IMG/VR virus record: IMGVR_UViG_3300037805_000715
Coordinates: 1 to 50,656 of that record
Reading direction: 5' to 3' (one strand)
From: a virus
Length of the DNA stretch: 50,656 nt
The notes below the pieces were generated by a model. That model had not been told where the DNA came from, ran no database searches, and saw only the letters and a program-made list of their open reading frames with translations. Shown piece by piece: positions 3,742 to 21,047 of this stretch. Numbering within the stretch: the first letter of the stretch is position 1; every line of letters starts with the position of its first letter. Position numbers and translations under genes: made by a program.

Positions 3742-3754
3742 CCGCCAGTATTTT

Positions 3755-3764: not shown

Positions 3765-3795
3765 CTCACAGTGGACAGGCAATTTAGGAGGTGTG

Positions 3796-4540: not shown

Positions 4541-4568
4541 GCACTTCACACCTTCAGCGGAGACACAC

Positions 4569-4880: not shown

Positions 4881-5093
4881 GTGCCCGCCTTTTGGGTAGA
4901 GGTTTGCGACAGCGGACAGTCGTTCCTATCCGCCGCGATCGAGGCGCCGACTGGCGCGCGCGCTGTCGCGTGGTTCCTATCCGAATACCTGGCCCACGGA
5001 ATACTGAGTGACGGGTCGGGAGGTACTACGTTGGACCACGTGTGCTGCCGTGTCCGCCGAACGCGTAAGCCGGTGCAGCTCATCCTGCGCTGA
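4881..5093 (+). CDS. Small hypothetical protein
   Basis: 70 residues starting at a GTG that follows the previous stop directly (TAAGTG), so translation probably depends on termination of the upstream gene. No good independent ribosome site is visible. Contains a CC pair near the end. Last gene before the terminator at 5105. No family recognised. Confidence 0.6.
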   Translation: MPAFWVEVCDSGQSFLSAAIEAPTGARAVAWFLSEYLAHGILSDGSGGTTLDHVCCRVRRTRKPVQLILR

Positions 5094-5104
5094 CGCGGGA
5101 TGCC

Positions 5105-5133
5105 GGTGTGCCCTAGCAGGCACACCATTTTTT
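5105..5133 (+). terminator. Rho-independent terminator
   Basis: GGTGTGCC and GGCACACC form an 8-bp stem with a six-base loop (5105-5126), followed by ATTTTTT. It closes the 3796-5093 cassette. The T tract runs into the stop codon of the convergent minus-strand gene. Confidence 0.88.
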
Positions 5134-5665: not shown

Positions 5666-5696
5666 TGTGTGCGCTCCTGCGGTGTGTACGCAGATG

Positions 5697-6506: not shown

Positions 6507-8497
6507 CACGCATCCCCGTACGCACGCACCGCCTGGACTCGCTTCAGGTCGTTGAGTACACGATCGAGGGACTTGAGCGCTGAGGCCGCCCGTGAGGAGT
6601 CCACCTGCAGCCCCAAGCGGCTCGCGACGAGCAGGTCAGCAAGCTTTCGGACTGTCACCTCGAGGTCAGGAATCATGGAAAGGTACTTATCCATGGTGTT
6701 GTCGTTCATGAACTGGAGCGCCAGCACGGAGTCGACCGTGCGGCGACCAGACACAGGCTGCGCGTAGGCGTGCTTATTGAGCGCGGGGTGCGCGTCCTCG
6801 TTGTTGGCGTGTACGAGTGCCGCCCATACTAGGTCAGCTACCTCATCCGTGGTCGGTGCTGCCGTCTTCAGCAACTCCGCGGCGTACATGGGCTGCACGG
6901 TGATTGTACGGGCGGTTGAAGCGCTGACGATGTCATCTGGGTCCACCATGAACTCGACGTCCTCGTGGCGGGCGGCAGCCAGCTTCGTTGCGGCACCTTC
7001 CTCCGTGTCCCCCAGCGAGGCCAACGCGACCTTGGCCTGAACGTGGGTGCACCTTGTTGTGTGCGTGCCGCCGGGCCCTTGGTAAACGAACGCGAAGTCT
7101 TCGTCGTCCCGGTACATACGCACCACATCGACAGACGCGTGTTTGGCGAACGTAGACGGGGACACGGCGCCTTGCATCTCGTCAGTTGGGAGGAAGCACG
7201 CGTGCTTGTCGACGAGGACAACGCCGTCGCCCTCCCAGACGATTCCCGCGTCACTGACGCGATCGAAGCTGAGCTGGGCTACGCGAATGGGGTGTGCGTG
7301 AACCTCGTCCTTGAACGTGTGCAGCCCGTCAACATCGGCCACCTTTGTCACGGGACTGGAGGCCGAATAGCCGCGCTCTCCGCGGACAATCACGTGCCCA
7401 CGACCATGCGCGTCCCCCAGCGATACGCAACTGCTGAGCACGTCGCCTGGCAGCGCGTCAAGTGCGCCCTCCGCGTTGACGCAGTCTGGAGACGCGACCT
7501 TGCTACGCCCGTCCGCAAACAGCACGCCGAGGCTAGCCGCGTGCCGGCCGTCGGCTAGAGAGAACGTACTGCCAGCGTAGATCGCGGGGTGCGTAGTTCC
7601 CTCAATGGTGACGTGTGCAATCTTCACAGGACCTTCGCATGTGGGGGCCTTTCGGACAGGAAGGCCTGGCCCATCCGAGAGGATCGCGATGCCGTCCTCA
7701 ATGGCGGCCTGCTTGTAGGTGAGCGGGATTTCGTCGACCTCAGCGTGCGACAGCGCGTACGTGTCGCCGTTTGGACGGATGGTGGTAAACCCCTTGTCGG
7801 TGTGCCGCAGCATCGCGTAAGGAGCCTCGTGCACCGTATGTACGGACGCCTCCTTCACACGAACGCCGTGCTCGTCGAGCACGGCGGCTACGGTCTCCGT
7901 GTAGGCCCCGCGCGCCGCCAGAGCCGCGACCAGCGTATCCTCCGCAGATGCGGTCTTGCCCCAGGTTGGCGCACCCACCTCGGGGCGTCCAGAGATCGCG
8001 AACTCTCCTGGCGTGCCCGCCATATTCGTCTTGTCCGCGAGCGACGCCGGAGCAGACAGCTCGGCCATGGACACGGACAGAGCAGCCCCAACACGCACCT
8101 TTGTGAGCGGCTGCGACGTGTTACTCGCGTCGTAGAACGTGTCGAACGGCTCAACGCGCCCGTTCGACGCGATGATGGGGATCCGAATCTTCGGGTCGCT
8201 ACCGTAGTCCACGGGCATCTCGGTGGCGCCCTGGTCAGCGAACTGACCGCCCGAGCCCATGCCGTTCGTAATGGACTGGTTTGGGCGCGCGATGAACGCA
8301 CCAACGATGTAGCCGGACGAGGTGTTCTTCTGGGACAGGTTGATCGTCAGCGAGTACTTCGCCAGGAACGGATGCTGGCGCACAAGCCCGTTCATGAGCT
8401 GCGGTTCTAGCTCTCCGCCGGCGGTGTCGATGAGGATCATCGCCGCGCCTGTTTTCTCGGTTGCGTTCTTCCGGTCTAGCAGATCGTAGACAGACAT
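6506..8497 (-). CDS. Large putative virion structural protein
   Basis: About 663 residues, no internal stops, starting at ATG 8497 (MSVYDLL) with GAGGTG upstream; a GTG four codons earlier is less likely. The N-terminal 180 residues are beta-rich and Gly/Ser/Asn-rich, the middle contains many short strands, and the last 130 residues look helical (LVHANNEDAHP..., then RAASALKSLDRVLNDL). Size and position between the gpV-like spike and the 5697 gene suit a tail or baseplate-associated protein. No enzyme motif was found. Confidence 0.78.
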   Translation of the reverse strand: MSVYDLLDRKNATEKTGAAMILIDTAGGELEPQLMNGLVRQHPFLAKYSLTINLSQKNTSSGYIVGAFIARPNQSITNGMGSGGQFADQGATEMPVDYGSDPKIRIPIIASNGRVEPFDTFYDASNTSQPLTKVRVGAALSVSMAELSAPASLADKTNMAGTPGEFAISGRPEVGAPTWGKTASAEDTLVAALAARGAYTETVAAVLDEHGVRVKEASVHTVHEAPYAMLRHTDKGFTTIRPNGDTYALSHAEVDEIPLTYKQAAIEDGIAILSDGPGLPVRKAPTCEGPVKIAHVTIEGTTHPAIYAGSTFSLADGRHAASLGVLFADGRSKVASPDCVNAEGALDALPGDVLSSCVSLGDAHGRGHVIVRGERGYSASSPVTKVADVDGLHTFKDEVHAHPIRVAQLSFDRVSDAGIVWEGDGVVLVDKHACFLPTDEMQGAVSPSTFAKHASVDVVRMYRDDEDFAFVYQGPGGTHTTRCTHVQAKVALASLGDTEEGAATKLAAARHEDVEFMVDPDDIVSASTARTITVQPMYAAELLKTAAPTTDEVADLVWAALVHANNEDAHPALNKHAYAQPVSGRRTVDSVLALQFMNDNTMDKYLSMIPDLEVTVRKLADLLVASRLGLQVDSSRAASALKSLDRVLNDLKRVQAVRAYGDA

Positions 8498-8557
8498 GTT
8501 TGGTAGCACCTCAGATCGGTTATAGAAAGGATACCGTGCAGGCGGCCGATAGCCAAT

Positions 8558-9730
8558 TCACGACGACTTTAGATGGAACGCCCGAGAGGCTACTACGCCT
8601 GCCAGCTGCAGCGAGGGCCCGGCGGCGTTGCCGGCCAATGGGTGTGTGTGGGCGGCCAACGCAGCCAGCAGCCCGCGGTCTACGAGAACCGCATCTGAGG
8701 CGGCTTTGCTACCGACGACGACATCCCCGACCGACTCAATGTGGACGCCGCCCGGCCCGAGCCGAACGTTCGAGCCGCCAGCAGAAAGGGCGACGCTTCC
8801 CGCGGTGACCGCGAGCTCCTCCAACACACGTAGGACCGCCCCACGCAAGTCCGCGGTCAGCGTTGCAGTTTCCGCGTCCGCGACGATACGCCCAGTGCCG
8901 AACTCCAGGATGCCCTGGTCCTCCACGACTACGTGTGCGGCTCCGCGCACCTCTACGCGCAGGTCCTGCGTGACCGCGAACACCTCGCCCGACTTGGCGA
9001 CCTGGTGCTTGTACAGCGACACACCCTCGTCAGACCGGACCACCACAGACATACAGCCGATGAGATCGCTTGCGGCTCCGGAGGACTCCGACCCGAATGT
9101 GTGGTAGGCGTCGTTCGCGCTGTCGAGTACCTGCGCGTCAAGCCTGCCGTAGGCGATGTCCACGGTGAAGTAGGTGTCCTGCGCGGAGTGGCGCACGCGC
9201 TGCCGGACGATAACCGATGTAGAGTTCCCATCGTCAGCTGGCGGATCGCCCGATATGACGCGCCCGTGGTCCCATATCAAGTTGCCGGCTACCGACTCAG
9301 CGCGGTAGCGTAAGAAGTGGTCTTGCACGAGCCCGCCGACTGGTAGGTACAGCCGTTGCGCCATTGAGTTCGCTCCGATCACGACCAGGCCGCCGGCCTT
9401 CACGGCAACACCGTTGCCGTCGCGTGTGGAGATCACAATGTCTCCTGGGTCGAGCAGCGGTCGCGACGCGGCCCAGTTGCCGCCGTCACCACTCCTCTCA
9501 GGTTCGGTTGTGTACGCCAGCACGATGCCTTGGTTTCGCGACATGGCCGCGATGACACAGTAGCCGCCAACCTCCGGCATATGGTGTAGCCCTCCGGCGT
9601 GATCTTTGTGGCACGCCGCGGAGGGTACCTCGCAGCGCAGCAGCTGGTGGGTCTTGTGAGTGTGCACCGTGACCGCGTACTCGGAGGGATGCACTTGGAC
9701 GATGCGTGCGTGGTGCAGTTCGGAGGGCAT
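8558..9730 (-). CDS. gpV/gp5-like baseplate spike protein
   Basis: 390 residues. The N-terminal part reads like the OB-fold of phage baseplate assembly proteins (ARIVQVHPSEYAVTVHTHK, then GGYCVIAAMSRNQG). The C-terminal half is strand-after-strand with SVALSAGGSNVRLGPGGVHI, as in spike beta-helices, and a late HTHPLAG resembles the HxH metal site at spike tips. Such proteins form the membrane-piercing tip of contractile tails. Start ATG 9730 has AGGAG upstream. The family assignment rests on pattern and not on a search; another beta-rich tail protein is possible. Confidence 0.65.
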   Translation of the reverse strand: MPSELHHARIVQVHPSEYAVTVHTHKTHQLLRCEVPSAACHKDHAGGLHHMPEVGGYCVIAAMSRNQGIVLAYTTEPERSGDGGNWAASRPLLDPGDIVISTRDGNGVAVKAGGLVVIGANSMAQRLYLPVGGLVQDHFLRYRAESVAGNLIWDHGRVISGDPPADDGNSTSVIVRQRVRHSAQDTYFTVDIAYGRLDAQVLDSANDAYHTFGSESSGAASDLIGCMSVVVRSDEGVSLYKHQVAKSGEVFAVTQDLRVEVRGAAHVVVEDQGILEFGTGRIVADAETATLTADLRGAVLRVLEELAVTAGSVALSAGGSNVRLGPGGVHIESVGDVVVGSKAASDAVLVDRGLLAALAAHTHPLAGNAAGPSLQLAGVVASRAFHLKSS

Positions 9731-9771
9731 ACGTGGGCGACTCCTACGTCAACGGGCAAAACCATCGTCGG

Positions 9772-9797
9772 TATAGGTATAAGAATCATACCTATAG
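9772..9797. promoter_or_regulatory. Inverted repeat around a TATAAG motif
   Basis: TATAGGTAT and ATACCTATA arms flank AAGAATC, so the rightward motif GGTATAAGAA (9776-9785) sits inside an inverted repeat. On the minus strand TATAGG lies 13 bases from operator copy 2 and could be the -10 for the gpV-like gene. Confidence 0.5.
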
Positions 9798-9809
9798 GAC
9801 GCAAGGCAC

Positions 9810-9828
9810 ATTATCACACTGTGATAAT
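9810..9828. promoter_or_regulatory. Operator-like palindrome, copy 2
   Basis: ATTATCACACTGTGATAAT, a full palindrome, between the divergent gpV-like gene and the plus-strand gene at 9879. For rightward transcription it lies downstream of the TATAAG element; for leftward transcription it covers the -35 region. Confidence 0.85.
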
Positions 9829-9878
9829 CCCTCAGTGCGCGTCACGACAACCACACCACTATGGGCGCAGGAGCAAAC

Positions 9879-10349
9879 ATGTTAGGCAAACTTCTCAAGG
9901 CCGCGCAGAAGGACAGGGCGCGAAACGCGAAAGTACAGAAGGCTACGAAGCGGTACGCTCGCGAAATGGACCGGTGCGGAATCGAGACAGGCAGGCTGCG
10001 CATCGAAGTCGACGAGGGCCATAACGTGCACACGAATAGCGCGCTCAACGCGTTTCGTATGGAGATCCTAACTCGGAGTTCGGGGTGCTACCCGGGGCAC
10101 TCCGTTAGGGTCACCGCCTTCGCCTATGTCAGCCCAGAGGACGTCACACTAGCCGCAAAGACGCTGTTTGTCCGCGTCACGATAACGGTGTCGAGGTGGG
10201 ACTGCTCGGGGAGGATGGAGCGCTCTTGGGCAGCCGCCAGGAGGTCACTACACAAGGTTGACAACTTCCCCACCGGAACCGCGCTGGAAGCAGCCGCGGA
10301 CTACCTATGCGCCGTTGGCGATGACATCCACACAGGAGCTGCAGCATGA
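9879..10349 (+). CDS. Hypothetical protein
   Basis: About 156 residues with a basic N-terminal helix (KLLKAAQKDRARNAKVQKATKR), then strands and a helical C-terminus. Start ATG 9879 (MLGKLL) has GCAGGAG at good spacing; ATG 9861 does not. First gene of the 9879-12957 cassette behind operator copy 2. Family not recognised. Confidence 0.72.
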   Translation: MLGKLLKAAQKDRARNAKVQKATKRYAREMDRCGIETGRLRIEVDEGHNVHTNSALNAFRMEILTRSSGCYPGHSVRVTAFAYVSPEDVTLAAKTLFVRVTITVSRWDCSGRMERSWAAARRSLHKVDNFPTGTALEAAADYLCAVGDDIHTGAAA

Positions 10350-10546
10350 TCATGTCACACAACTCGCTGGAGACCGCAGAGCGCCACCTAGAGGTGGCTA
10401 TCGAAAACGTGTCGAACGCGTTCAACCCAGACCTTCCGCACGAATACGGCGACACGCTTCGGGAGTGCTGCGCGCGCTACATCGAAGCGTACGACGACAT
10501 CGTGCAGGCGATCACGGAAAACGGCGGGTGCCTACCCGACGAGTAG
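10346..10546 (+). CDS. Small acidic helical protein
   Basis: 66 residues, acidic, probably two helices (LETAERHLEVAIENVSNAF and ECCARYIEAYDDIVQAI). It overlaps the previous gene in an ATGA junction, with AGGAG seven bases upstream. Size and charge are compatible with a small host-takeover or inhibitor protein, but that is a guess. Confidence 0.72.
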   Translation: MIMSHNSLETAERHLEVAIENVSNAFNPDLPHEYGDTLRECCARYIEAYDDIVQAITENGGCLPDE

Positions 10547-10570
10547 TACACTCGGCGAAAGGGGGAGCAT

Positions 10571-11020
10571 GTGCCAAATCGCAAAGTGACAATTTACACC
10601 GACGGCTCCTGCCGCCCGAACCCCGGGGTGGGCGGCTGGGGCGCGATCATCATGCTCGGCGGCTATGACTACGCGAACACTGCGCTGTTTGGCGGAGAAG
10701 CCGAAACTACCAGCAGCCGCATGGAGCTCGTCGCGGCGGCTGAGGCGCTGGCCCACCTGACTACATCGAGCGCCGTCCAGCTGTATACAGACTCACAGTA
10801 CCTGCGTAACGGGATGGTAAAGAAGTGGGCCGCCGGGTGGTCACGCAGGGGCTGGCGCACGAACGCAGGCTCGCCCGTAAAAAACCAGGACGTGTGGATG
10901 CGCTTGCTCGAGTTGGACGCGCTCCACGATGTTGAATGGATCTGGGTCAAGGGGCACAAAGGGAATCTCTACAACGAGGTGGCCGACCGACTGGCAAACA
11001 CTGGGAGGTTACGTGGGTAA
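10571..11020 (+). CDS. rnhA: Ribonuclease HI
   Basis: 149 residues, the usual length for RNase HI, starting at GTG with GGGGGAG upstream. All catalytic positions are present: D11 in YTDGSC, E52 in RMEL, D74 in YTDSQ, H129 in VKGHKG and D139 in ADRLA. It cleaves the RNA strand of RNA-DNA hybrids and could remove replication primers or R-loops. It sits in a cassette of small unknown genes, away from the replication block at 32-48 kb. Confidence 0.95.
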   Translation: MPNRKVTIYTDGSCRPNPGVGGWGAIIMLGGYDYANTALFGGEAETTSSRMELVAAAEALAHLTTSSAVQLYTDSQYLRNGMVKKWAAGWSRRGWRTNAGSPVKNQDVWMRLLELDALHDVEWIWVKGHKGNLYNEVADRLANTGRLRG

Positions 11021-11684
11021 AGACACGTATAGGAAGGCGCGCAAGACGGGTCGGCGTGCGCAGAAGAGCAAGATGCGCGATGCCCGGCTTAGGCGTCGGT
11101 CAAACGATGTGTACGAAATGCGCGGAGGCCGCTTCGCACCCCTCAAGTCCTGGGAGACTGCGGTGCTGTCCGCAGAGGCGCAGGTGTTTCGGATCCCACA
11201 TCCGCCGTTCTACCAGGGCACTAGCGCGAGATACATCGTGTGCAGCGGACCAAGCAGTACCTTGGTCGCAAAAGTGATTTACGAAGTCATGTTCCGCCCA
11301 GAGGTCATCGCGCTCGCCGGGGCAGCTCTGCGAGACCGTGGTCCGGACAATCTCGAGCACGCCTGGGCGCTAATGTTGGCGGGCGCGGCCGCAACGACCG
11401 CTTACTGGTACGACGTCCCCGGCGCGTTAAATAAGCTATGGAGGGAGCACGAGAAACGATGCCCAACGCACACCGACCAGAAATGTACGTACACGGGTTC
11501 AACGCGTTCTCACGCGTTGGTTGGCGGCAGGACCGCCCCGGGGCATTTGTGCGCGAGCACTACCACGAAGGGGTGCGCACCATACAACGCACCTGGCTGT
11601 GTCAGGATTGCGGGAAGGTCAGCCCAACCAAGTTCACATTGGTACCTGAGTTGTGGAACCGCCTGTTCCACCGAGGCGGAATAG
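11013..11684 (+). CDS. Hypothetical protein with out-of-frame overlap into next gene
   Basis: Starts at GTG 11013 with GGGAGG upstream, overlapping the RNase HI stop by eight bases. The first 149 codons look like a real protein with a basic N-terminus and a C-terminal helix ending NKLWREHEKR. The remaining 74 codons overlap the next gene in another frame and are Cys/Thr/Ser-rich, as expected of a shadow reading. At 11460-11462 the frame reads TGC inside ATGC of the next start; TGA there would give the ATGA junction used by neighbouring genes. The tail may be due to stop loss or a sequencing error. Confidence 0.65.
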   Translation: MGKDTYRKARKTGRRAQKSKMRDARLRRRSNDVYEMRGGRFAPLKSWETAVLSAEAQVFRIPHPPFYQGTSARYIVCSGPSSTLVAKVIYEVMFRPEVIALAGAALRDRGPDNLEHAWALMLAGAAATTAYWYDVPGALNKLWREHEKRCPTHTDQKCTYTGSTRSHALVGGRTAPGHLCASTTTKGCAPYNAPGCVRIAGRSAQPSSHWYLSCGTACSTEAE

Positions 11685-12076
11685 CCTGCATCAGGTGCGC
11701 GTCTATACGCAACGGCCGGGCTTTCAAGCCCGGTGAGTTCCTACCAACCGCACGCAACATACCTCACCGAGAGCGCGCAGAGCGCGCCATAGCCGCGAGC
11801 CTTGTCGTTGGTCGGCTGCTTGACGACTTCGGGCAGGACCCTGCGGACATTAACAGAGGTATGTGCGATGAGTTTGCGGAGAACCTTGTCGATTGGGCAA
11901 AGCGCGCAGCCGGGCTGTATGGGGAGCCGATCTGGCTGAACACGCTCCCGGACGGAGATGCGTACGCACACATGGCTGTGTACTTCAAATCCCTAGATCT
12001 ATGGTTCGACGCGCAGACTCCCAGAGGCGTCACAATCTGGCAGCAGCTTGACTACGTTAAGGATCGCACATCATGA
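11459..12076 (+). CDS. Zinc-ribbon protein, unknown function
   Basis: About 205 residues from ATG 11459 (MPNAHRPEM); ATG 11438 is also possible, and AGGGAG lies between. Residues about 50-90 contain CQDCGK and CIRCAS, a two-knuckle zinc ribbon. The C-terminal half (LPDGDAYAHMAVYFKSLDLWFDA) looks like a compact alpha/beta fold. It ends in an ATGA overlap with the next gene. Family not recognised. Confidence 0.75.
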   Translation: MPNAHRPEMYVHGFNAFSRVGWRQDRPGAFVREHYHEGVRTIQRTWLCQDCGKVSPTKFTLVPELWNRLFHRGGIACIRCASIRNGRAFKPGEFLPTARNIPHRERAERAIAASLVVGRLLDDFGQDPADINRGMCDEFAENLVDWAKRAAGLYGEPIWLNTLPDGDAYAHMAVYFKSLDLWFDAQTPRGVTIWQQLDYVKDRTS

Positions 12077-12390
12077 CCCCAGCGCTCTACCAACTGCCTT
12101 CCAGAGCATGCCATACTTGTATCGCCGTGCGTGGCCACGCGGCGAGGGTTATGCGTATGCGCACACGTAAGAACGAGAAGGCGCGCGGACGCGCGCAAGC
12201 CAAAAAGCTACAAGATGTGCTCACACGTAAGTATTACGCAAAGCGCTGTCGCGTAGAGGCGGTGCACGGGAAACGCGGAGAGTACCTGCTCGTCACCTTC
12301 TTGGGGGACGTCGGACTAGACTCGTCCGTAGAGCTTCCGGGCCGCTTCCACAGGATGGACGTGCGCTACAAACTCTCGAAGAGGAATTAG
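12073..12390 (+). CDS. Small basic hypothetical protein
   Basis: 105 residues, ATGA overlap with the previous gene. Carries RACHTC near the N-terminus and a very basic helix (RMRTRKNEKARGRAQAKKL), then strands (CRVEAVHGKRGEYLLVTFLG). Nucleic-acid binding is plausible from charge. No family recognised. Confidence 0.7.
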   Translation: MTPALYQLPSRACHTCIAVRGHAARVMRMRTRKNEKARGRAQAKKLQDVLTRKYYAKRCRVEAVHGKRGEYLLVTFLGDVGLDSSVELPGRFHRMDVRYKLSKRN

Positions 12391-12393
12391 GCG

Positions 12394-12957
12394 ATGACTA
12401 CACACACAAACCAGCTTCTTCGCATCCACATCACGCTAATCGACGGGACGCGTACGTACGAGTCCTACCTACACGTACACGGCAGCCACCCGCTCATGAA
12501 GGTCGTCGAGCCTGGTGCGGAAGGGAAGATACTCCCCTACCGGGTGTTCCGCACACACCTGGTAGACCAGGCTGATATGGACGCGTTGGTGGCGGACGTC
12601 GCCACGCAGCTCCCAGGGTTCGAGCCCAGGCATGTTGCAGTGAAGCTGCTTCGCGGACAGTCTATCGGAAGCATCGTACAGGGCATATTGGCCGAGGAGG
12701 TCAACGTGCAAATGCTCAGCGACATTGTCACGCGCGCAACGCGCGCCATGGCCGAAGGGCAGGTGCTGCAGGCTGCACAAGGCGTACCTGAGGAGGACCA
12801 GCGCGTGTTGATCGCCGTCAATGATCTCTCGGCGCTGATTGTCGGACACTACTCCACAGTGACGGGGAGGTTGCTGTCTGACGTGTCCGCGTTGATTGGA
12901 GACCCCGCAGCCCCAAGGACCCGGTGCGGCAAATGCCCCGCGTGCCTGGCCAACTGA
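12394..12957 (+). CDS. Hypothetical protein with C-terminal cysteine motif
   Basis: 187 residues beginning with a beta-rich segment (LLRIHITLIDGTRTYESYL), then helices, ending in RCGKCPACLAN, a C-x2-C-x2-C motif likely to bind metal. GAGGAATTAGGCG precedes the ATG. Last gene of its cassette; a GC-rich hairpin terminator follows. No family recognised. Confidence 0.75.
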   Translation: MTTHTNQLLRIHITLIDGTRTYESYLHVHGSHPLMKVVEPGAEGKILPYRVFRTHLVDQADMDALVADVATQLPGFEPRHVAVKLLRGQSIGSIVQGILAEEVNVQMLSDIVTRATRAMAEGQVLQAAQGVPEEDQRVLIAVNDLSALIVGHYSTVTGRLLSDVSALIGDPAAPRTRCGKCPACLAN

Positions 12958-12963
12958 CCCACC

Positions 12964-13018
12964 GCACGCGCCGCCTCCATGCGGGGCGGCGCGTGCACCC
13001 ACCAACCCTCCAATTTTT
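12964..13018 (+). terminator. Terminator hairpin of the 9879-12957 cassette
   Basis: GCACGCGCCGCC pairs with GGCGGCGCGTGC around a short loop (12964-12996). The T tract is displaced (TTTTT at 13014-13018), so efficiency is uncertain. Confidence 0.65.
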
Positions 13019-13040
13019 AGCGCAAACGCGTACAGGCTAC

Positions 13041-13060
13041 GGGCATAAGAACTATAGAGA
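13041..13060 (+). promoter_or_regulatory. GGGCATAAGAAC promoter motif
   Basis: GGGCATAAGAACTATAGAGA, preceded by GCGTACAGG. It closely parallels the motif at 50239 (GCGTACTGG, then GGGTATAAGAACTG). It lies about 47 bases upstream of the start at 13096. Confidence 0.6.
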
Positions 13061-13073
13061 GGTGCATTCCGTA

Positions 13074-13090
13074 CCTCCTAGACTTGGAGG
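13074..13090 (+). promoter_or_regulatory. Leader hairpin occluding the ribosome site
   Basis: CCTCC (13074-13078) can pair with GGAGG (13086-13090), which is the ribosome binding site of the gene at 13096. The short stem could lower or gate translation. Confidence 0.4.
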
Positions 13091-13095
13091 GCTGA

Positions 13096-14277
13096 ATGAC
13101 ACTTCTAAAGTTATGGACACTGGTTCTGCCGCTGGTGCTTCCGCTGGTGCTCACCGCACCGCTCGGCGGATGCTTGGTAGATGATAGCTCCGGGCCGGCA
13201 GCGTTAGCGGTGCTGACGGCTGGGGTGGTCCGAATGACAACCGCCGTGCACCACACCTGCCGATCCGGGAGGCAGATGGCCGGCAAATGCGCTGAGCAAG
13301 CGCGGCACCTGGGCAGGTTCATACGGAGCTCGGCCGCGTACCGAAGCGCAGGCGTGCGAAGCATGCCGATGGTGCAGCGCGCACTATCCGCTGAGCGCGC
13401 GGCCGTTCACGGCCAGCTTGGTCGGGCGGCAGGCTACGCGATGGATGCCGCGCACCTCGCCAGGGAGGTGCGCGTCGGACCGGCCACGTTAAGCATGGCT
13501 GGTCGCGTAGCCACGCTGCATAGCCCAGCAGGCGGCGGTGCAGGCGGAATGGCAATGTCTGCCATGGCCGCAGCCGCCGCTGGCGCGACCGCCGGTGTGG
13601 TGGCTCGCGCCACGCCACGTGGGAGGTTGAGGCTAAACCGAGAGGTCGGAAAGGGGTACGAGAGTGCCGTAGTGCTCGGGCTGCGCAGGCAGGGGCTCCG
13701 AATGACGCAAAAGCCAATCGCAGCACTGCTGCCGGGCGAGATGACCGAGCAGCGGCACCTCAAGACGGGCGAGTACACGGCGCGACTCCCAGTGTTCTCT
13801 GTTCGGAACGGTAGGGCCGTTCGGGAGGGGATGCGTCGCGTACGTAACAGCAAGGGGCACTACAGGATCCCAGACATCGTGGTTCGTCGGCGCGGACGTC
13901 TAGAGGTGTGGGAGGCGAAGTGCGTTGAGGCCCGGCCGAACACACGCCTTGGTCGTGGAGTATCCATGACGCAGGGGTGGGTCGGAGCACAGGCGCTCGG
14001 GTTTGCCGTTGGTGTACGCCAGGCTGCCGATGCCATGGGCGTCCGACCAGCCATGCACTACGCATTTTGCAACGTAGGTGCTGGCTGGATGCGCCCAATA
14101 ATCATGGCGGCTGGTGCGGCGTATGGAGTGCGCGTGTACTTTCACAAGCACTTTGGACTTCCTGGACCTATACCGGCCACGGTCAGGACCGGGATGCTGC
14201 AAGGACTTCTGATGTCCGGTGCTGGTGTAACCATGGACATGGCAAACACCGCTATCGACATCTGGTTAGACCTGTGA
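13096..14277 (+). CDS. Putative lipoprotein with PD-(D/E)XK nuclease-like domain
   Basis: 393 residues. The N-terminus is a hydrophobic signal (LWTLVLPLVLPLVL) followed by PLGGC, a plausible lipobox with Cys at about 26. The middle is Ala/Gly-rich with a possible second membrane segment (MSAMAAAAAGATAGVV). The C-terminal half carries E189 in GYESAV, then IPD260 followed by E273-A-K275 in EVWEAK, the spacing of PD-(D/E)XK nucleases. An envelope-anchored nuclease could attack incoming DNA (superinfection exclusion) or be delivered to other cells; both are inference. It has its own promoter and leader hairpin, with GGAGGG before the ATG. Confidence 0.7.
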   Translation: MTLLKLWTLVLPLVLPLVLTAPLGGCLVDDSSGPAALAVLTAGVVRMTTAVHHTCRSGRQMAGKCAEQARHLGRFIRSSAAYRSAGVRSMPMVQRALSAERAAVHGQLGRAAGYAMDAAHLAREVRVGPATLSMAGRVATLHSPAGGGAGGMAMSAMAAAAAGATAGVVARATPRGRLRLNREVGKGYESAVVLGLRRQGLRMTQKPIAALLPGEMTEQRHLKTGEYTARLPVFSVRNGRAVREGMRRVRNSKGHYRIPDIVVRRRGRLEVWEAKCVEARPNTRLGRGVSMTQGWVGAQALGFAVGVRQAADAMGVRPAMHYAFCNVGAGWMRPIIMAAGAAYGVRVYFHKHFGLPGPIPATVRTGMLQGLLMSGAGVTMDMANTAIDIWLDL

Positions 14278-14516
14278 GCGCGCGCATGAAGCCGTTGTGC
14301 ATCGAGTACGACGAGTATGGTACGGCAGAGCTGCACATGCCCGATGACGTGTGCGAGGCGCTACATGACCGGCTGGATAGTCTCGGGTGGTTGGTGGCGT
14401 TTTGGGAGGATTGTCTGACGGGGCTTGGCGGCCTCTGCGTGACTATGCTGCCAGACGAGTCACGTGGCCTTCCGGAGTTGTATGCGGACGTGTGGCGCGA
14501 GCTGCGCATACCGTGA
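14274..14516 (+). CDS. Small acidic hypothetical protein
   Basis: About 80 residues from a GTG overlapping the previous stop (GTGA), or 76 from ATG 14286. Acidic, with DDVCEALHDRLDSLGWLVAFWEDCL and other Cys/Trp residues. It is coupled to the lipoprotein-nuclease gene and directly followed by a strong terminator, so it could be a partner or immunity protein; no sequence evidence beyond position. Confidence 0.65.
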   Translation: MSARMKPLCIEYDEYGTAELHMPDDVCEALHDRLDSLGWLVAFWEDCLTGLGGLCVTMLPDESRGLPELYADVWRELRIP

Positions 14517-14521
14517 TAGGG

Positions 14522-14553
14522 CAGGGGGGGGGGTGGACCTCCCCCCTGTTTTT
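14522..14553 (+). terminator. Strong rho-independent terminator
   Basis: CAGGGGGG and CCCCCCTG form a G/C stem, followed by TTTTT at 14549-14553. It ends the 13096-14516 unit and separates it from the convergent tail-fibre gene. Confidence 0.88.
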
Positions 14554-14558
14554 ACCGA

Positions 14559-16661
14559 TCACTTCCAGCGGCGACCGACTACCGAGAGCCCTGTGATCAG
14601 CGCGTTGTCTGCGAGAGTGTCAGCGGCGTTGGCTGCATCCGCGTCGCGTATGATGGCGAAGGCGAGCACGTCACCCGGAACAAGCGCGGACACATCGACC
14701 GAAAACACCAGGACGTGCGGAACCATCGTGGCCCCAGGGACGGTGAATACCTTGAACTCGGAGGACTCGGGAGTCGTATCGACGAGCGCCGTGCCTGCTG
14801 GGTGGGGGGACACGACGAGTTCAATCTCAACGTCGCCGACGATTGCCGGCGTGGCAACCGAAACCGAAAACTGCAATGCGCAGGATGTATCGACCGACTC
14901 AGGCAGCGTGAACGCTGCGCCTAGCCCGTCCTTTACCGTGGGCTCCAGCCTGTTGTTCTTGGAGACCAGCTTGATCGTCGAGCTGTACACGATGTCTGTG
15001 CTCTTCGGCGCGGCGCCGTCGACCCCGACCAAGTCCTTGAGCCCGACGGGCATCGTCATGGTTGGGCGTGCACCGCCGAACCATTCCGTGGTTCCGTTCC
15101 CGTTCCCCTCCCAGCGGTCGGTGTGGCACTTGATCTGCTGCAGCAGGCCCACACTTGTGACACCAGTCACAATCCGCAACCGGCACCAGTACAGTTCGTG
15201 ACCTTCGATTGTGTGCAGCGCCCACCCTGCGACGCCATCCATATCGAAGCGAACGTGCTCGCTGTTGGCGCGCTCCAGGACACGCGTCGAAAACTGCCCC
15301 TTTGTCGTGGTGAGCGCGGACATGTTTCGTACATCCGTCCAGGCTGCGCCGGACCAGTACTCGGTGACGATCTCGCCAGCGCCAACCACAAGCGCCGTGT
15401 CCACCAGGACCTTGAACCCCGGGAACACGTACGGCGACCCGATGTACAGGCACTCGCCGGCAGCGACCGAGTCGAAGGGTACGAACGTGGAGCCTTCCGC
15501 GGTCTGTGCGGCGACGGACTGCCTGGTGAACGGCCCCACTTCCGCGGCGTCTCCGGTGTACGTCTCGACGTCGGTGAAGTAGCTCTCGCCGCCACCGACG
15601 ACAAGCTCCGAGGGATTGTCACGCGTGCCCACGTGGCATTCGCCCATGACTGTGGTTCCTGCGTCTCCGAGCGTGTTCGACACGACTAGGCCGAGCACGG
15701 TGCCGAGAGTGGCGCCCTCTATGCTCTGGCTACTCATCCACACGCTGGACGCCTGCAGCACGGACGTCGCATCCTCAAGGACCGCATCGTTCGCGCACTG
15801 ATCGAAGCCACCGCCAGTGAGTAGCACGCTTGAGTTCGCGCCGATGCGAACACCGACAGCCGCGTTCCGCACGCCAAGCCCGGAGCATTGCGCGAACGCA
15901 CCGTCGCGTACGTTCAACGCGTTGACAAGCGACCCGCCATCCCCTCGAAGCGCGCCAGGCTCTATGATCACAGATGCTCCGGCGCCCTCACACAGGACGC
16001 CGTTCGTCACAATCGAACCGGACAGCTGGATTCCGTCCACCGTAGCTGACGCGCCGGCGGTGATGTGTACGCACGAAGTGGTCGTGCCGGCAGCTACATG
16101 CATCTTGCGGAGCAGGAGGTTGCTGGCACCCACGGAGTCGACGAGCCAGCCGACGTCGCAGTCGGCGTACTGGCAGTCGTGAACATCTACGCCGACCGTG
16201 CCGAGTGGGGAGTGGTACGCGGCGAAGCCGGCATCCGTCGCGCCCGTCGTGAAGACGCCGTACATGTCTGAGTGACTGCCCAAGACAAATACGTGCGCCC
16301 CAGGGTCGCTCGCGATAATCTGGGTCGTCGCATGTCGGCCCACCGCGATGACGGACACATAGTCCGCGATCACCAGTGGGTTGAGTTCCGTGTAGATGCC
16401 CGGGTAGACCTGTACGAGCGTTGGTGTGGCGACGCCCGCCACGAGAGCTGCGGCCACGAGCGCCGCTTTTACGGACGTGTGCTGCCCACCAGACTTCGCG
16501 ACCGTAATCACGTGTGCGTATGCGTGCACTGGCGGGTTGGCCTCTACGTGGTCGAACCCTTCGTCGACATCGCTACGCAGGTCTGCGAGCGCCACAGCGA
16601 GTGTGCCGTGTCGGAACCGGCCACCTGGTGGGTTTCTCTTGTTACCAAATGCGTCGCTCAT
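14559..16661 (-). CDS. Beta-helix tail fibre or tailspike
   Basis: About 700 residues from ATG 16661 (MSDAFGNKRN), which has GAGGGGT upstream. After a short N-terminal part, residues of about 50-360 show a pectate-lyase-like repeat pattern (ALVAAALVAG, LVQVYPGIYTE, then many short Val/Ile/Gly/Asn turns), typical of parallel beta-helix spikes that bind or degrade surface glycans. The C-terminal 300 residues look like beta-sandwich receptor-binding modules. A minus-strand TACAAT at 16693-16698 may be its -10. Substrate and catalytic residues cannot be assigned. Confidence 0.78.
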   Translation of the reverse strand: MSDAFGNKRNPPGGRFRHGTLAVALADLRSDVDEGFDHVEANPPVHAYAHVITVAKSGGQHTSVKAALVAAALVAGVATPTLVQVYPGIYTELNPLVIADYVSVIAVGRHATTQIIASDPGAHVFVLGSHSDMYGVFTTGATDAGFAAYHSPLGTVGVDVHDCQYADCDVGWLVDSVGASNLLLRKMHVAAGTTTSCVHITAGASATVDGIQLSGSIVTNGVLCEGAGASVIIEPGALRGDGGSLVNALNVRDGAFAQCSGLGVRNAAVGVRIGANSSVLLTGGGFDQCANDAVLEDATSVLQASSVWMSSQSIEGATLGTVLGLVVSNTLGDAGTTVMGECHVGTRDNPSELVVGGGESYFTDVETYTGDAAEVGPFTRQSVAAQTAEGSTFVPFDSVAAGECLYIGSPYVFPGFKVLVDTALVVGAGEIVTEYWSGAAWTDVRNMSALTTTKGQFSTRVLERANSEHVRFDMDGVAGWALHTIEGHELYWCRLRIVTGVTSVGLLQQIKCHTDRWEGNGNGTTEWFGGARPTMTMPVGLKDLVGVDGAAPKSTDIVYSSTIKLVSKNNRLEPTVKDGLGAAFTLPESVDTSCALQFSVSVATPAIVGDVEIELVVSPHPAGTALVDTTPESSEFKVFTVPGATMVPHVLVFSVDVSALVPGDVLAFAIIRDADAANAADTLADNALITGLSVVGRRWK

Positions 16662-16692
16662 ACCATACCCCTCGCGTCGAAGTTCTACGCTA

Positions 16693-16698
16693 ATTGTA
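16693..16698 (-). promoter_or_regulatory. Leftward -10-like TACAAT for the tail fibre gene
   Basis: TACAAT on the minus strand about 32 bases upstream of the start at 16661. The same hexamer precedes the RNA polymerase gene. No convincing -35 is visible. Confidence 0.4.
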
Positions 16699-16731
16699 CT
16701 TCCGTAGACCGTGGTTACGAACGCGTCCAGG

Positions 16732-16750
16732 ATTATCACAGTGTGATAAT
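16732..16750. promoter_or_regulatory. Operator-like palindrome, copy 3
   Basis: ATTATCACAGTGTGATAAT between the divergent tail fibre gene and the gene at 16818. It ends 17 bases before the TATAAG at 16768, nearly the same geometry as copy 1, so it would cover the -35 region of the rightward promoter. Confidence 0.87.
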
Positions 16751-16764
16751 CCCGGGACCTATTC

Positions 16765-16774
16765 GGGTATAAGC
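16765..16774 (+). promoter_or_regulatory. GGGTATAAGC promoter motif
   Basis: GGGTATAAGC, about 44 bases upstream of the ATG at 16818, identical to the motif at 3755. Confidence 0.62.
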
Positions 16775-16817
16775 GACTTGTACGTAGGCTACGTACCCAC
16801 ACATATGGAGATCTCGG

Positions 16818-17816
16818 ATGGACCGTGGAGCAGGCAGAATTCCGGAAGGCATGTTACACCAGGAGGGCGGACTCGCGAACGTACTCAAGATGCTGGCTAC
16901 GAGCACTCGCCAGATCAGTGCACAGGATATAGTGGGCGCGCTGGACGGGCCGCTGTTCTCGGTGGACGCGGTTATCGAAGAAGCGCTGCGTGTCAAGGCC
17001 ACAACGAAGATCGACATACACACGAAAGTCAGGGAAGAGGCGTGGACATCCGGGCTAGAGCGTGCGGAGCTGCTCCTGGCGGCGGTGCGGCGCATGTGTC
17101 GCGCGGATATCGAGCGGCTGTCCGCGCTCGACGAGGCTACGTTCGACACGATACGGCTCGAAGGCGTGTGCGACCTGCTCATCAGTGCGCCGTTGGGTAG
17201 GTGCATGGTGGTCGATACGGCGATTAGGCGCCTAGACGCGTGCGGGGTCTGGGCGCGCGCGTTCCCCGGCGTGTACGCAGGGCTGCGCGCGCAGCCTGGT
17301 CGACGGCTGTCTGGGGGTGTTGAGACGTACTACGTCGTTAGGGGCCTCCCCGACCAGAACCTCCCAGACATGAGCATCGCTGGTAAGTACCTCTGTAACA
17401 ACCACTGGTGGCACACAGACTTGTCAGAAGCTGTACGGTTTGAGACTTCCGAGGAGGCGTACTCGGCGAAGAGTGCCGAGGCTGAATTCGACCCGCCCAG
17501 CACCGAGTTCGTCGCGGAGGTTGTGCTGATCGCCGAGCAGCGGGTGGTCTCTGATGCGGGCGCGGCGCACTTCAACCACCACGATACGCATGTATGTTAC
17601 GTGGAGGGACTTGGGTACATGACCACTACAAAGACAAAGAGCAATAAGCGGTATGTATCCCGCACTCTGATCCCGTCGTGCATGTACGCGCGGCGGTCAG
17701 ACGCAGAGAAGACGGCGGGCAATACGTGGATGGTACGTGGGAAGCGTGTCACGCCGCAGGATATCGAGTTGCGCAGGCTGGAGGTCATAACCTCCAGGAT
17801 CCCTCTCGAGGGGTAG
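16818..17816 (+). CDS. Hypothetical protein
   Basis: 332 residues; GGAGATCTCGG precedes the ATG. The N-terminal 120 residues are helical (QDIVGALDGPLFSVDAVIEEAL), and the C-terminal part is strand-rich with His/Tyr patches (AAHFNHHDTHVCYVEGLGY) and basic residues (TTKTKSNKRYVSRTL). It is a single-gene rightward unit behind operator copy 3, convergent with the gene ending at 17818. Family not recognised. Confidence 0.78.
   Translation: MDRGAGRIPEGMLHQEGGLANVLKMLATSTRQISAQDIVGALDGPLFSVDAVIEEALRVKATTKIDIHTKVREEAWTSGLERAELLLAAVRRMCRADIERLSALDEATFDTIRLEGVCDLLISAPLGRCMVVDTAIRRLDACGVWARAFPGVYAGLRAQPGRRLSGGVETYYVVRGLPDQNLPDMSIAGKYLCNNHWWHTDLSEAVRFETSEEAYSAKSAEAEFDPPSTEFVAEVVLIAEQRVVSDAGAAHFNHHDTHVCYVEGLGYMTTTKTKSNKRYVSRTLIPSCMYARRSDAEKTAGNTWMVRGKRVTPQDIELRRLEVITSRIPLEG
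17778..17797 (+). terminator. Stem-loop at convergent gene ends, weak terminator candidate
   Basis: CTGGAGGT-CATA-ACCTCCAG is a perfect 8-bp hairpin within the last codons of the 16818 gene, just before the convergent gene. There is no T tract. Confidence 0.35.
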
Positions 17817-17817
17817 G

Positions 17818-18582
17818 CTACTCGCCCCAGGTGCACTCTGGGTGCGCAATGGTGACTCCGCCTTCAGGGAGCTCGCGCCCCCACAGATGCATGCCTAGGC
17901 GCTGAGCCTCTGTACGCAGGCCGTGACGGATATCTGCGGTAAGCACGGGCGGGCGCCCATCGAAGTGCGCTACGACGAACCACATCCCGGACGAGCGCAC
18001 AGACACCAGCATGTACATCGCACTCTTCGTGGGGGGATCCTGTGCGAGGAACAGGTCTGCCAGGGCGCAGCTATCCAGGTCGGCTGCGTTGACTATGGCG
18101 ATGCTCGAGTGATCCATCTCCCACAGAACTTTGTCTGCGAACAGCTTTGTGATCGCCTCCATGTTGGCCACCGGTAGCTGCCGACCTACGAGGGTGGTGC
18201 GCGCAATCACGGTGGAGAACATGCGCTCACCTCGCCGAGGCGGACCACTTCCATTCTCCGCAACAACGAGGTGCACGCGCGAGGCGCCCAGCGCCGTGGC
18301 CATGCAGTTGGTCGAATCTGAAATCGTGCGCGAGATCAGCGCAGCCTTTCGCTGGTCGTTGGCGGCTGACGTGCGGGACTCTGCGTACGAATCTAGGACC
18401 GGCAGAAGTACCGTGTCCGGGCCGCCCTCCAGATCGTTCACAAACTTCTCGACGCCTTGACTCACGGCCTCGGGCAACTTCCTCTTCTTGGTGAGCGCCT
18501 CGTACCCCTTATACGCGCCGTACGCAGCCGCGCCCGCGGCCATGAACCAATCCCGCATCGTGACCCCGTCGAACAGACTCAT
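17818..18582 (-). CDS. Hypothetical protein with hydrophobic Gly/Ala N-terminus
   Basis: 254 residues; GCAGGAG precedes the ATG at 18582. Residues about 10-27 are AMAAGAAAYGAYKGY-like (small, hydrophobic), resembling the N-terminal region of the SNF2 protein. The remainder is alpha/beta with ASRVHLVVAENGSG, HSSIAIVNAADL and MYMLVSVRSSGMWFVVAHF. Strand suggests a virion or virion-associated role. Family not recognised. Confidence 0.72.
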   Translation of the reverse strand: MSLFDGVTMRDWFMAAGAAAYGAYKGYEALTKKRKLPEAVSQGVEKFVNDLEGGPDTVLLPVLDSYAESRTSAANDQRKAALISRTISDSTNCMATALGASRVHLVVAENGSGPPRRGERMFSTVIARTTLVGRQLPVANMEAITKLFADKVLWEMDHSSIAIVNAADLDSCALADLFLAQDPPTKSAMYMLVSVRSSGMWFVVAHFDGRPPVLTADIRHGLRTEAQRLGMHLWGRELPEGGVTIAHPECTWGE

Positions 18583-18686
18583 CGGCTATCTCCTGCGGTG
18601 TGCCTAATGCCGCTAATCACCAATGATACCACTGCACCCTATTTGGGACGGCAGTGTACCCACAATACAAATGAACCGGAGGACGC

Positions 18687-19229
18687 ATGTCCGAGTACAA
18701 AGCTAAGAAGCCCGCGTCGAGTACGTTACCAGGCAGTGCGGAGTTCGCATGTTGGGCAGAGGGGACCCTTGGGCCTCTGACACAAATCACCGGAGGCATG
18801 GTCAACATGCTCGCGAGGACCGGTAAGCGATCGACGAGCTACTCCCCCGGAAGTATGTTCAATGCGCGTATCGTTAACTGCCTCGCTGGGGAGTGGTTGG
18901 ACGCCGCAGGCGGCACTGTGTATAAGTTGCGCAGGGACCACTGGCAGGATCGCCTATGGGTGGTTGGGAACGTGCTTAACGATGAGGACCACGACGGAAT
19001 GGTGTTCGCGCGTGGCGCGTACGACAGCCACTGGGTGGTGAAGCGCGCGCAGGCAGCCGGAGATTACACCTGCCCGAACTGTGGCGGCCCACACCTGGAG
19101 GGCGATGGGTTCGATCCCGAGGGTACGCAGGTGTCGCAAGAGATTGTGTGCAACGACTGCTCTGCTGCGTTTACGGCTACGTACACATTGACGGCGTTCG
19201 TATTTGACGCCGCGCGGAGCGACCAATGA
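18687..19229 (+). CDS. Zinc-ribbon hypothetical protein
   Basis: 180 residues; ACCGGAGGACGC precedes the ATG. The C-terminal part has CPNCGG and, about 30 residues later, CNDCSA, a typical two-knuckle zinc ribbon. A TTGGGA...17 bases...TACAAA arrangement upstream (18649-18677) is a possible sigma70-like promoter. It is followed in an ATGA overlap by the 19226 gene. Function unknown. Confidence 0.75.
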   Translation: MSEYKAKKPASSTLPGSAEFACWAEGTLGPLTQITGGMVNMLARTGKRSTSYSPGSMFNARIVNCLAGEWLDAAGGTVYKLRRDHWQDRLWVVGNVLNDEDHDGMVFARGAYDSHWVVKRAQAAGDYTCPNCGGPHLEGDGFDPEGTQVSQEIVCNDCSAAFTATYTLTAFVFDAARSDQ

Positions 19230-20110
19230 GTCGCTACGTAGAGCACTCGCACAATGTCACTGTGGAGATTGATGGGGTGGTCACGAAGGTCGGAGAGATC
19301 CGATGGACCCCTGATGAAATGGCCGAGCGCCCGTTCGAGTTCGACCCGCACGACGGCATGTTCCGCATGTACACCTGGCTGCGTAACCACATAAGCCCGA
19401 ACGAGGTTGACTTCGAGTTCGACCCTCGAGAAGACGACTGGGATGACCTCCCGCAGATTCTTGAGGAGCACTTCGGGGAGCCTGGTCACGCGCTCCCAGT
19501 GTTCACTTACATCCACAGCGGGATCGCGTACTCCACCGGTAGCTTCTCGTGCAGGTTCGACAGCGGGCGCGCTGGTGTTGTGTGCATGAAGGCGTCTGAC
19601 GTGCCTGACGGGGCGGACCCTGACGAGATGCTTTCCGGGGCCGTAGCCGCGTGGGGGTCCTGGGCCAACGGGGAGAACCTGTACGCGGATCTGTACACTG
19701 TGCGTGGCATGGACGTTGGTGAGTCTATGAGCTACCGCGACACAGATGGCCTTCGTGCTGCGTGCGCGGATGGCGGTGACATGTTCGATGGTTGCGCGCT
19801 AGACGCCATCGTGCGCGTTGAGCTCACTCACCAGCTGAGCCAGAGTACCTACGATTTCGCGCGAACTGTCGCTGATGCGTTGGAACCTGAGGACTGCCGC
19901 TCGCTGCCGGGTGTCCGCGCTCACTACGTGAGCCAGGTTGCAGATGCTGTCCAGCACCTGGAGTACGTAGCGCCTGGGGCCGCGGTAGCCGCACTCCTCA
20001 GCGCAATCAACGACGACGAATGGTGCGCATACAGCGACTTCATCGACGCGTGCGCGGCGTACATTGTGGGTACGTTTGACAAGGATACACTGAAGTTTGT
20101 GGAGGCTTAG
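19226..20110 (+). CDS. Acidic hypothetical protein
   Basis: 294 residues, notably acidic (EVDFEFDPREDDWDDLPQILEEHFGEP). ATGA overlap with the zinc-ribbon gene, then a perfect terminator. High negative charge without enzyme motifs is typical of DNA-mimic or host-inhibitor proteins, but also of many phage ORFans; no family is recognised. Confidence 0.75.
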   Translation: MSRYVEHSHNVTVEIDGVVTKVGEIRWTPDEMAERPFEFDPHDGMFRMYTWLRNHISPNEVDFEFDPREDDWDDLPQILEEHFGEPGHALPVFTYIHSGIAYSTGSFSCRFDSGRAGVVCMKASDVPDGADPDEMLSGAVAAWGSWANGENLYADLYTVRGMDVGESMSYRDTDGLRAACADGGDMFDGCALDAIVRVELTHQLSQSTYDFARTVADALEPEDCRSLPGVRAHYVSQVADAVQHLEYVAPGAAVAALLSAINDDEWCAYSDFIDACAAYIVGTFDKDTLKFVEA

Positions 20111-20139
20111 CCCACACACAGTGTAGGTGAGCTACGATA

Positions 20140-20173
20140 AATAAGCGCACGCACTCACGTGCGCTTATTTTTT
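20140..20173 (+). terminator. Rho-independent terminator
   Basis: AATAAGCGCACG pairs with CGTGCGCTTATT around a short loop, followed by a run of T to 20173. It ends the 18687-20110 unit just upstream of the dUTPase gene. Confidence 0.92.
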
Positions 20174-20191
20174 AGCTAAAGGAGCGTGCGC

Positions 20192-20845
20192 GTGTACGAG
20201 AGGCCCACAACCGGAGCGGAGATCATTGCGTGGCTCGACAGCATGCCCGTCGGAATGCTGGTGCTCGATCGGTTCAAGCAGAAGTACCGGAAGATGAAGG
20301 ACTGTACATGGTTCACAATCGACCACGCGTTCGACATGCCTATCCGGGTGCATCGCTCTGCGGCCGAAATGTCGCAGGTGGAGAAGGCACACCCGTTCGA
20401 GATTGGGGAGGCCATATACGAGGCTGTACCTGGCGGGCGGCTCCCGGTTCGTGCTGAAGAGGGCTCTGTCGGCATGGACTGCTTCCTGCGCCTGTCCGAG
20501 CCGAAGCAACTTGGCGTCCACCGAGAGATGCTTAGGCTCGGGTTCAAGATCGCCATACCGCGAGGATGGTGCGCGGACATACGAGAGCGCAGCAGCGCGC
20601 ACAAGAACTCTGTGTACGTGCATCTGGGTACGATCGACGCCAGCTATCGGGGGGAGGTCCGCGCGATCATGTCTGCCCCTTGGGCACACGCAGACGGCGC
20701 AAACGGTACGGGGGTCGTCAGCGATGGTGACCGCTACGCGCAGCTAGTGCTCAGGGTAGACACGCGGATACCGATTCACGAGGGTGTTGTCCCCATGGAC
20801 ACTGATCGAGGCGATGGTGGATTTGGGCACACAGGGCTGCGGTAG
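20192..20845 (+). CDS. dut: dUTPase with N-terminal extension
   Basis: 217 residues. The C-terminal 130 carry trimeric dUTPase motifs in order: GMD (94-96), RSS (133-135), GTIDASYRGEV (146-156, catalytic Asp region), GDRYAQLV (179-186) and RGDGGFGHTG (206-215). It hydrolyses dUTP to dUMP, keeping uracil out of DNA and feeding thymidylate synthesis. The family is normally about 150 residues; the first 85 here are extra and unrecognised. GGAG fits GTG 20192; the GTG at 20186 is too close to it. Confidence 0.88.
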   Translation: MYERPTTGAEIIAWLDSMPVGMLVLDRFKQKYRKMKDCTWFTIDHAFDMPIRVHRSAAEMSQVEKAHPFEIGEAIYEAVPGGRLPVRAEEGSVGMDCFLRLSEPKQLGVHREMLRLGFKIAIPRGWCADIRERSSAHKNSVYVHLGTIDASYRGEVRAIMSAPWAHADGANGTGVVSDGDRYAQLVLRVDTRIPIHEGVVPMDTDRGDGGFGHTGLR

Positions 20846-20859
20846 AAAGGCAGGCGCCC

Positions 20860-20896
20860 GCGGCGAGCACAGCGTAGGGGGGTAAGTGCTCGTCGC
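20860..20896. other. GC-rich hairpin in convergent intergenic region
   Basis: GCGGCGAGCAC pairs with GTGCTCGTCGC (11 bp, one G-U) between the ends of the dUTPase and RNA polymerase genes. No T tract follows, so termination by it is uncertain. A degenerate operator-like half site (ATTACCACTGTGT, 20937-20949) lies further right. Confidence 0.4.
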
Positions 20897-21025
20897 CCAC
20901 AACAGGTTACTTTTCAGAGATCAGCACGGGGCAGAATTACCACTGTGTGCTGGGCCACTACTCGGTCACCTATGCGGCGGCGCCTGCGGAAGTATTGTAC
21001 CCGCACCAGTCAGCCGACAGGTGGA

Positions 21026-21044
21026 ATTATCACAGTGTGATAAT
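21026..21044. promoter_or_regulatory. Operator-like palindrome, copy 4 (end of RNA polymerase gene)
   Basis: ATTATCACAGTGTGATAAT, with symmetry extended by GGA/TCC to 21023-21047. It starts right after the stop codon of the RNA polymerase gene (21048). No promoter is needed here for either convergent gene, so a transcription-blocking (stoperator) role fits. Confidence 0.82.
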
Positions 21045-21047
21045 TCC

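Follow-up and report, generated by a model that had tools for sequence, protein, structure and literature searches.

The SitA toxins of myxobacteria, as described in PMC5562445 and PMC8546572, are lipoproteins with C-terminal nuclease domains whose cognate immunity gene, encoding SitI, lies directly downstream. They are often carried on prophages or mobile elements (Mx-alpha), have an escort domain of about 375 residues, drawn from a set of six conserved ones, and in the case of one SitA3 end in a toxin domain of the restriction endonuclease fold (PF15648). Toxin-immunity cassettes are also borne by phages elsewhere, namely the telocins, bacteriocin-type toxins of which purified TelA kills (PMC12042878), and the cassettes of Mycobacterium abscessus prophages (PMC9934374). 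Two further systems place relevant proteins at the cell membrane. SNIPE is a membrane-bound bacterial defence nuclease that cleaves phage DNA while it is being injected (PMC13190303), and Ltp of phage TP-J34 is a superinfection-exclusion lipoprotein of 142 residues that blocks DNA injection (PMC3952083). Here we describe a pair of phage genes, P0001 and P0002, for which SitA-SitI is, by analogy, the closest experimental parallel.

The window analysed, 50,656 bases long, is an entire virus record from IMG/VR that is classed as linear and is probably a fragment. The two genes, whose features are collected in Table 1, form a real pair of accessory genes with clear limits, in a phage lineage about which little is known. 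Codon usage in P0001 is phage-like in its own frame only, with a score of 0.025 per codon as against -0.20 to -0.45 in the other five frames, and P0002 likewise scores 0.072 in its own frame and -0.12 to -0.52 in the others. As originally predicted from the sequence, P0001 starts with a signal that ends in a lipobox, LGGC, with Cys26 as the residue to be lipidated, and among the real genes of the window it is the only one with a lipobox-like start. The proline at position -4 is a deviation from the strict PROSITE lipobox. With leucine at +2 and serine at +7, the protein fits the outer-membrane sorting rule given in PMC5562445 (no lysine at +2, no alanine at +7), and thus appears to carry, as SitA proteins do, a type II signal with outer-membrane sorting. 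The middle region that follows is basic and rich in alanine. It includes the second hydrophobic stretch that had been predicted, whose hydropathy makes it a borderline candidate for a membrane helix.

The small acidic gene anticipated downstream is P0002, whose GTG start codon overlaps the stop codon of P0001 by four nucleotides (GTGA). Its product is without a signal sequence, and its negative charge complements the strongly positive charge of P0001. A stable hairpin directly after the pair confirms that the two genes have a terminator of their own. The claim that they also have their own promoter fared less well: the GGGCATAAGAAC motif upstream lends it weak support, with 10 copies in the window at up to two mismatches where 3.2 are expected, whereas no sigma-70-like promoter was found upstream of P0001 (0.5 expected). 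A second perfect copy of this motif, in the form GGG(C/T)ATAAGAAC, lies at 50238-50249 on the plus strand.

Table 1. Features of the P0001-P0002 locus and its surroundings, in window coordinates.
Feature	Position	Strand	Remarks
Tail-spike-like gene	8558-9730	-	left of block
Inserted block, 11.3 kb	9731..21047		between spike-like gene and fused RNA polymerase gene
Palindrome ATTATCACACTGTGATAAT	9810..9828		near left block edge
Promoter-like motif GGGCATAAGAAC	13041..13052	+	starts 55 nt upstream of P0001 start
Ribosome-binding site GGAGGG	13086..13091	+	ends 4 nt upstream of P0001 start
P0001	13096..14277	+	393 aa; predicted lipoprotein, PD-(D/E)XK-like domain at the C-terminus; ATG start; pI 11.46, net charge +31
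P0001 lipoprotein signal, residues 1-26	13096..13173	+	MTLLKLWTLVLPLVLPLVLTAPLGGC; lipobox LGGC, Cys26
P0001 middle region, residues 27-177	13174..13626	+	basic, Ala-rich; no NCBIfam or Pfam match
Ala/Gly hydrophobic stretch, residues about 145-170	13528-13605	+	Kyte-Doolittle 1.57 over 19 residues
Nuclease-like domain, residues 178-354	13627..14157	+	H-E-E-E-E-H-E-H-E, predicted in low-confidence model
PD-(D/E)XK-type motif P259-D260-I-V-V-x3-G-x-L-x-V-W-E273-A-K275	13870..13920	+	putatively catalytic
P0002	14274..14516	+	acidic, 80 aa; putative immunity protein or inhibitor; pI 4.26, net charge -10
Intrinsic terminator after P0001-P0002	14522..14554	+	hairpin -30 kcal/mol, z -3.14
Fibre-like protein, about 700 aa	14559-16661	-	in block
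RNase H	in block 9731-21047		PF00075, 1.9e-41
dUTPase	in block 9731-21047		PF00692, 6.1e-9
Palindrome ATTATCACACTGTGATAAT	16732..16750		inside block
Palindrome ATTATCACACTGTGATAAT	21026..21044		right block edge, 3 nt from RNA polymerase stop codon
Fused RNA polymerase gene	21048-28460	-	right of block; single 2470-aa ORF with beta-like and beta'-like parts
Palindrome, near-perfect copies	starts 3723, 9810, 16732, 21026, 28514, 32721, 37231, 43145, 46040		

The case for a nuclease begins with a motif in the C-terminal part of P0001. The residues D260, E273 and K275 had been numbered correctly, and the stretch R-I-P-D260-I-V-V-x3-G-x-L-x-V-W-E273-A-K275 is built like strands two and three of the PD-(D/E)XK core, with the D ... 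(D/E)-x-K arrangement that characterizes the superfamily. Only one of the 470 window frames of at least 60 residues contains a motif of this type. A strict form occurred in none of 200,000 shuffles of P0001 and a loose form in 30 of 50,000, with the motif in both cases defined after sight of P0001. In addition, the protein has, in order, GxxxE (G185-E189), IxD (I258-D260), ExK (E273-K275) and Q (Q293 or Q299), which is the Tox-REase-7 signature as set out in PMC3482391; this order arose in 50 of 100,000 shuffles. Judged from its sequence, the motif is unlikely to be there by chance.

We then scanned IMG/VR viral contigs for the same motif spacing and obtained 28 stretches, 18 of which fell in short or interrupted frames and were excluded from the count that follows. 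Seven of the remaining ten, all in ORFs of at least 100 residues, matched a Pfam family of the PD-(D/E)XK superfamily (Hjc, VRR-NUC or PDDEXK_1) with an E value of 0.01 or better, two of the seven (L033 and L037) above the curated Pfam cut-off. The other three were a Mu F-like protein (L017), a head-tail connector (L027) and a protein with no match (L023). When P0001 was aligned by hhalign to four nucleases collected in this way the result was 19.9%, compared with 0.1-0.2% for three control sequences, a comparison that is partly circular in that the four nucleases had been gathered by the motif itself.

Profile searches did not place P0001 in any family. The search of the nuclease domain proposed in the original prediction gave no Pfam match at E values up to 1 with the full-length protein and up to 10 with C-terminal pieces, a range within which the Tox-REase-7 (PF15649), GIY-YIG and DUF4041 profiles were also silent. 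NCBIfam and profiles of PDB sequences had no match to P0001, and the best PHROG match was weak (E 0.23), in agreement with the earlier statement that the architecture belongs to no standard phage family. PADLOC models recognized no family in P0001 or P0002, PF15648 (Tox-REase-5) matched nothing in the window at E values up to 10, and BLASTP of P0001 against one PF15649 member found nothing. A survey for Tox-REase-7 found it in 2 of 349 genomes, too small a number to align the family, one of the two loci being read in a frame with stops, and a plasmid search for the same domain returned one record.

Two single-sequence AlphaFold models of P0001, with pLDDT values of 43.6 and 40.7, are too poor to prove a fold, and the order of helices and strands in both would fit a PD-(D/E)XK core. 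Foldseek with the first model listed 777 matches, of which none reached 0.001 and the top rows were retroviral integrases, and the best match by VIA-align with that model was an exopolyphosphatase (Z 4.3). Neither search ranked nucleases of the PD-(D/E)XK fold highest, and both were treated as uninformative. Taking together the motif statistics, the weak hhalign match and the strand order in the low-confidence model, we consider it likely that the C-terminal domain of P0001 has a nuclease fold. Of the original interpretation, the anatomy of the protein is borne out by the sequence, and the nuclease fold is likely by motif, hhalign and model order.

Relatives of either protein were sought widely. 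In tblastn searches of phages and plasmids, the latter with the C-terminal part only, P0001 had no match or chance matches in Salmonella (E 5-8). Two IMG/VR scans returned one stretch each and a GTDB contig scan for exact words of eight residues returned 33, none of them a relative. A whole-genome search of five genomes found no relative, and nor did searches of 398, 296 and 296 genomes, a convenience sample from three phyla other than Myxococcota in which the last search used residues 176-393. The sole match from the genome searches, the Ala-rich lipoprotein L045 (E 9.7e-4), was set aside as a chance match. P0002 was not found in phages or in the 398 genomes (again without Myxococcota), and its IMG/VR scan yielded four stretches and no relative. 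Among the titles and opening lines of abstracts in the literature we found no phage lipoprotein nuclease with an immunity protein, a scope that does not prove absence.

How does the pair compare with the systems described above? Like SitA-SitI, it combines a lipoprotein signal and a C-terminal nuclease-like domain with a gene directly downstream; P0002 is acidic and in the right place for an immunity gene, and its immunity role is putative. It differs in that the middle region of P0001 is about 150 residues long, set against the published description of a roughly 375-residue escort domain, in that P0001 matches no family and no sitB was identified, and in that the carrier is a phage that encodes an RNA polymerase of its own. 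As the escort domain of about 375 residues is missing and a SitA would also call for a host with TraAB outer-membrane exchange, we do not file P0001 as a SitA. It shares with Tox-REase-7 the ordered signature described above but lacks a match to the profile of that family. Of the Tox-REase-5 motifs given in PMC3482391, P0001 has the EAK but not the FDG. The telocins and the M. abscessus cassettes resemble the pair, if it is read as toxin and immunity, as phage cargo loci that vary between relatives and encode both, but the accounts in PMC12042878 and PMC9934374 do not call either of them a lipoprotein. SNIPE resembles the predicted P0001 product as a nuclease held at the cell membrane, but is a bacterial gene product of the inner membrane with DUF4041 and a cytoplasmic GIY-YIG domain (PMC13190303). 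Ltp, like P0001, is a phage-encoded, moron-like lipoprotein, but the account in PMC3952083 reports no nuclease domain in it.

The reading to which we tentatively incline is that the pair is a phage cargo cassette of a lipoprotein-anchored nuclease toxin and its cognate immunity protein, built like SitA-SitI, since toxin and immunity are laid out in this way, with an exported, lipid-anchored basic nuclease encoded first and an acidic cytoplasmic protein encoded by the gene that overlaps its end. The course sketched next is inferred as regards catalysis, the inhibitory role of P0002, and the site, delivery and targets of P0001. The infected (or lysogenic) cell would produce P0001 and export it by Sec, and the lipidated Cys26 would anchor it in the envelope, with the outer membrane as the probable site. 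The C-terminal domain would act as a metal-dependent PD-(D/E)XK nuclease, and cytoplasmic, acidic P0002 would bind this basic domain and so guard the DNA of the producer and of the phage itself before export or after return. The lipoprotein may reach neighbouring or rival cells by membrane contact, in vesicles or with lysis debris, and recipient cells without P0002 would be cut. Several things count against a toxin: there is no toxin, immunity or nuclease profile match, the models are poor and the fold searches did not favour such nucleases, no relatives turned up in the collections searched, no delivery machinery was identified, and the middle region is far shorter than the SitA escort domain. 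It is doubtful, to our minds, that a phage with a fused, bacterial-type RNA polymerase has itself, in place of the bacterium, been armed with a new, non-SitA class of lipoprotein nuclease toxin with immunity that is spread by phages and passed from infected cells by way of the envelope to neighbours.

The original prediction was that P0001 could cut incoming phage DNA and that the acidic partner could be an inhibitor; P0002 would then restrain the protein that has yet to be exported. Such exclusion of other phages from the envelope has precedents in the phage lipoprotein Ltp (PMC3952083) and in the membrane-bound nuclease SNIPE, which acts at injection (PMC13190303), and the strongly basic charge of P0001 and its accessory location would suit it. 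Each precedent is partial, however, as no nuclease is reported for Ltp and the inner-membrane SNIPE has domains that P0001 lacks; with no PADLOC match and no relative among the phages searched besides, the claim did not gain specific support and we rate it as rather unlikely, though as a rival to be taken seriously. A toxin with immunity fits the gene order at least as well. Barnase and barstar are the model for an exported nuclease with a cytoplasmic inhibitor, and an exported basic nuclease-like domain with a small acidic cytoplasmic partner, in a block shared with genes of nucleotide metabolism (those for RNase H and dUTPase), could on that model be a phage nuclease of general use that degrades, for example, nucleic acid of the host or of the lysate within the periplasm. 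This would leave the lipid anchor without a reason and sits poorly with the absence of P0001 from sister phages, and we find it distinctly improbable. It is also unlikely that P0001 is no nuclease at all and instead a fast-evolving, basic envelope lipoprotein with a fortuitous or decayed motif, a view favoured by the lack of homologs and profile matches, the low-confidence models and the unrelated structural matches. The shuffle statistics, the ordered GxxxE-IxD-ExK-Q signature, the value of the motif spacing in predicting nucleases (seven of ten) and the partner gene argue against it. A lysis protein (spanin) was considered and dropped on the size and neighbour criteria by which spanins are generally recognized, given the size of P0001 and the lack of lysis genes beside it. 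If true, such a reading would carry nuclease toxins anchored in the envelope, or anti-phage nucleases tethered to the membrane, into a phage lineage for which we came across no description of either kind.

The accessory nature of the pair is best seen from the genes around it. Through the RNA polymerase we found four sister phages (L046-L049), with polymerases 48-58% identical, to which the window is colinear on both sides of an 11.3-kb block that contains P0001 and P0002. In all four sisters the polymerase is a single ORF (2107-2867 residues), and its stop codon shares one base with the start codon of the gene that follows (TAATG in three, TGATG in one). This following gene is the homolog of the spike-like gene of the window. 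In the window the two genes are 11.3 kb apart, and the block is absent from this site in all four sisters. The simplest reading of these sequences is that the block was inserted between two coupled genes; the opposite case, in which it was lost from the sisters to leave a perfect overlap, is less likely. The polymerase-spike junction would be an accessory insertion site and a place to look for more cargo in relatives.

The block holds 14 likely genes, P0001 and P0002 among them, and encodes zinc-ribbon-like proteins along with the products listed in Table 1. Of these, the RNase H was alone in giving a real match among 13 related loci (Vibrio phage D181, 7.9e-21). P0001 has no match in any of six sister and outgroup records, and a tblastn search of 50,697 phage records with the fibre-like protein found nothing. 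A 19-nt palindrome, ATTATCACA(G/C)TGTGATAAT, is common to the block and the rest of the genome: it occurs nine times in the window at up to three mismatches (0 expected), three times at or in the block and six times outside it, mostly near the starts of transcription units. Its 15-nt core was found in none of 56 comparison loci. We take these to be putative operator-like or centromere-like dispersed sites. Since the palindromes are common to both, the block appears to share regulation with the rest of the genome, and for the same reason a chimeric assembly of the block is disfavoured.

Some variation was seen in the polymerase itself. The ORF in the window has an intein-like insert at about residues 793-1146, and the polymerase of Vibrio phage D181 is divided among three genes, compared with the single ORF of the sisters. 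In L049 the ORF (3688-12291) encodes 2867 residues, about 760 more than in L046-L048, which suggests the presence of two inteins or similar inserts.
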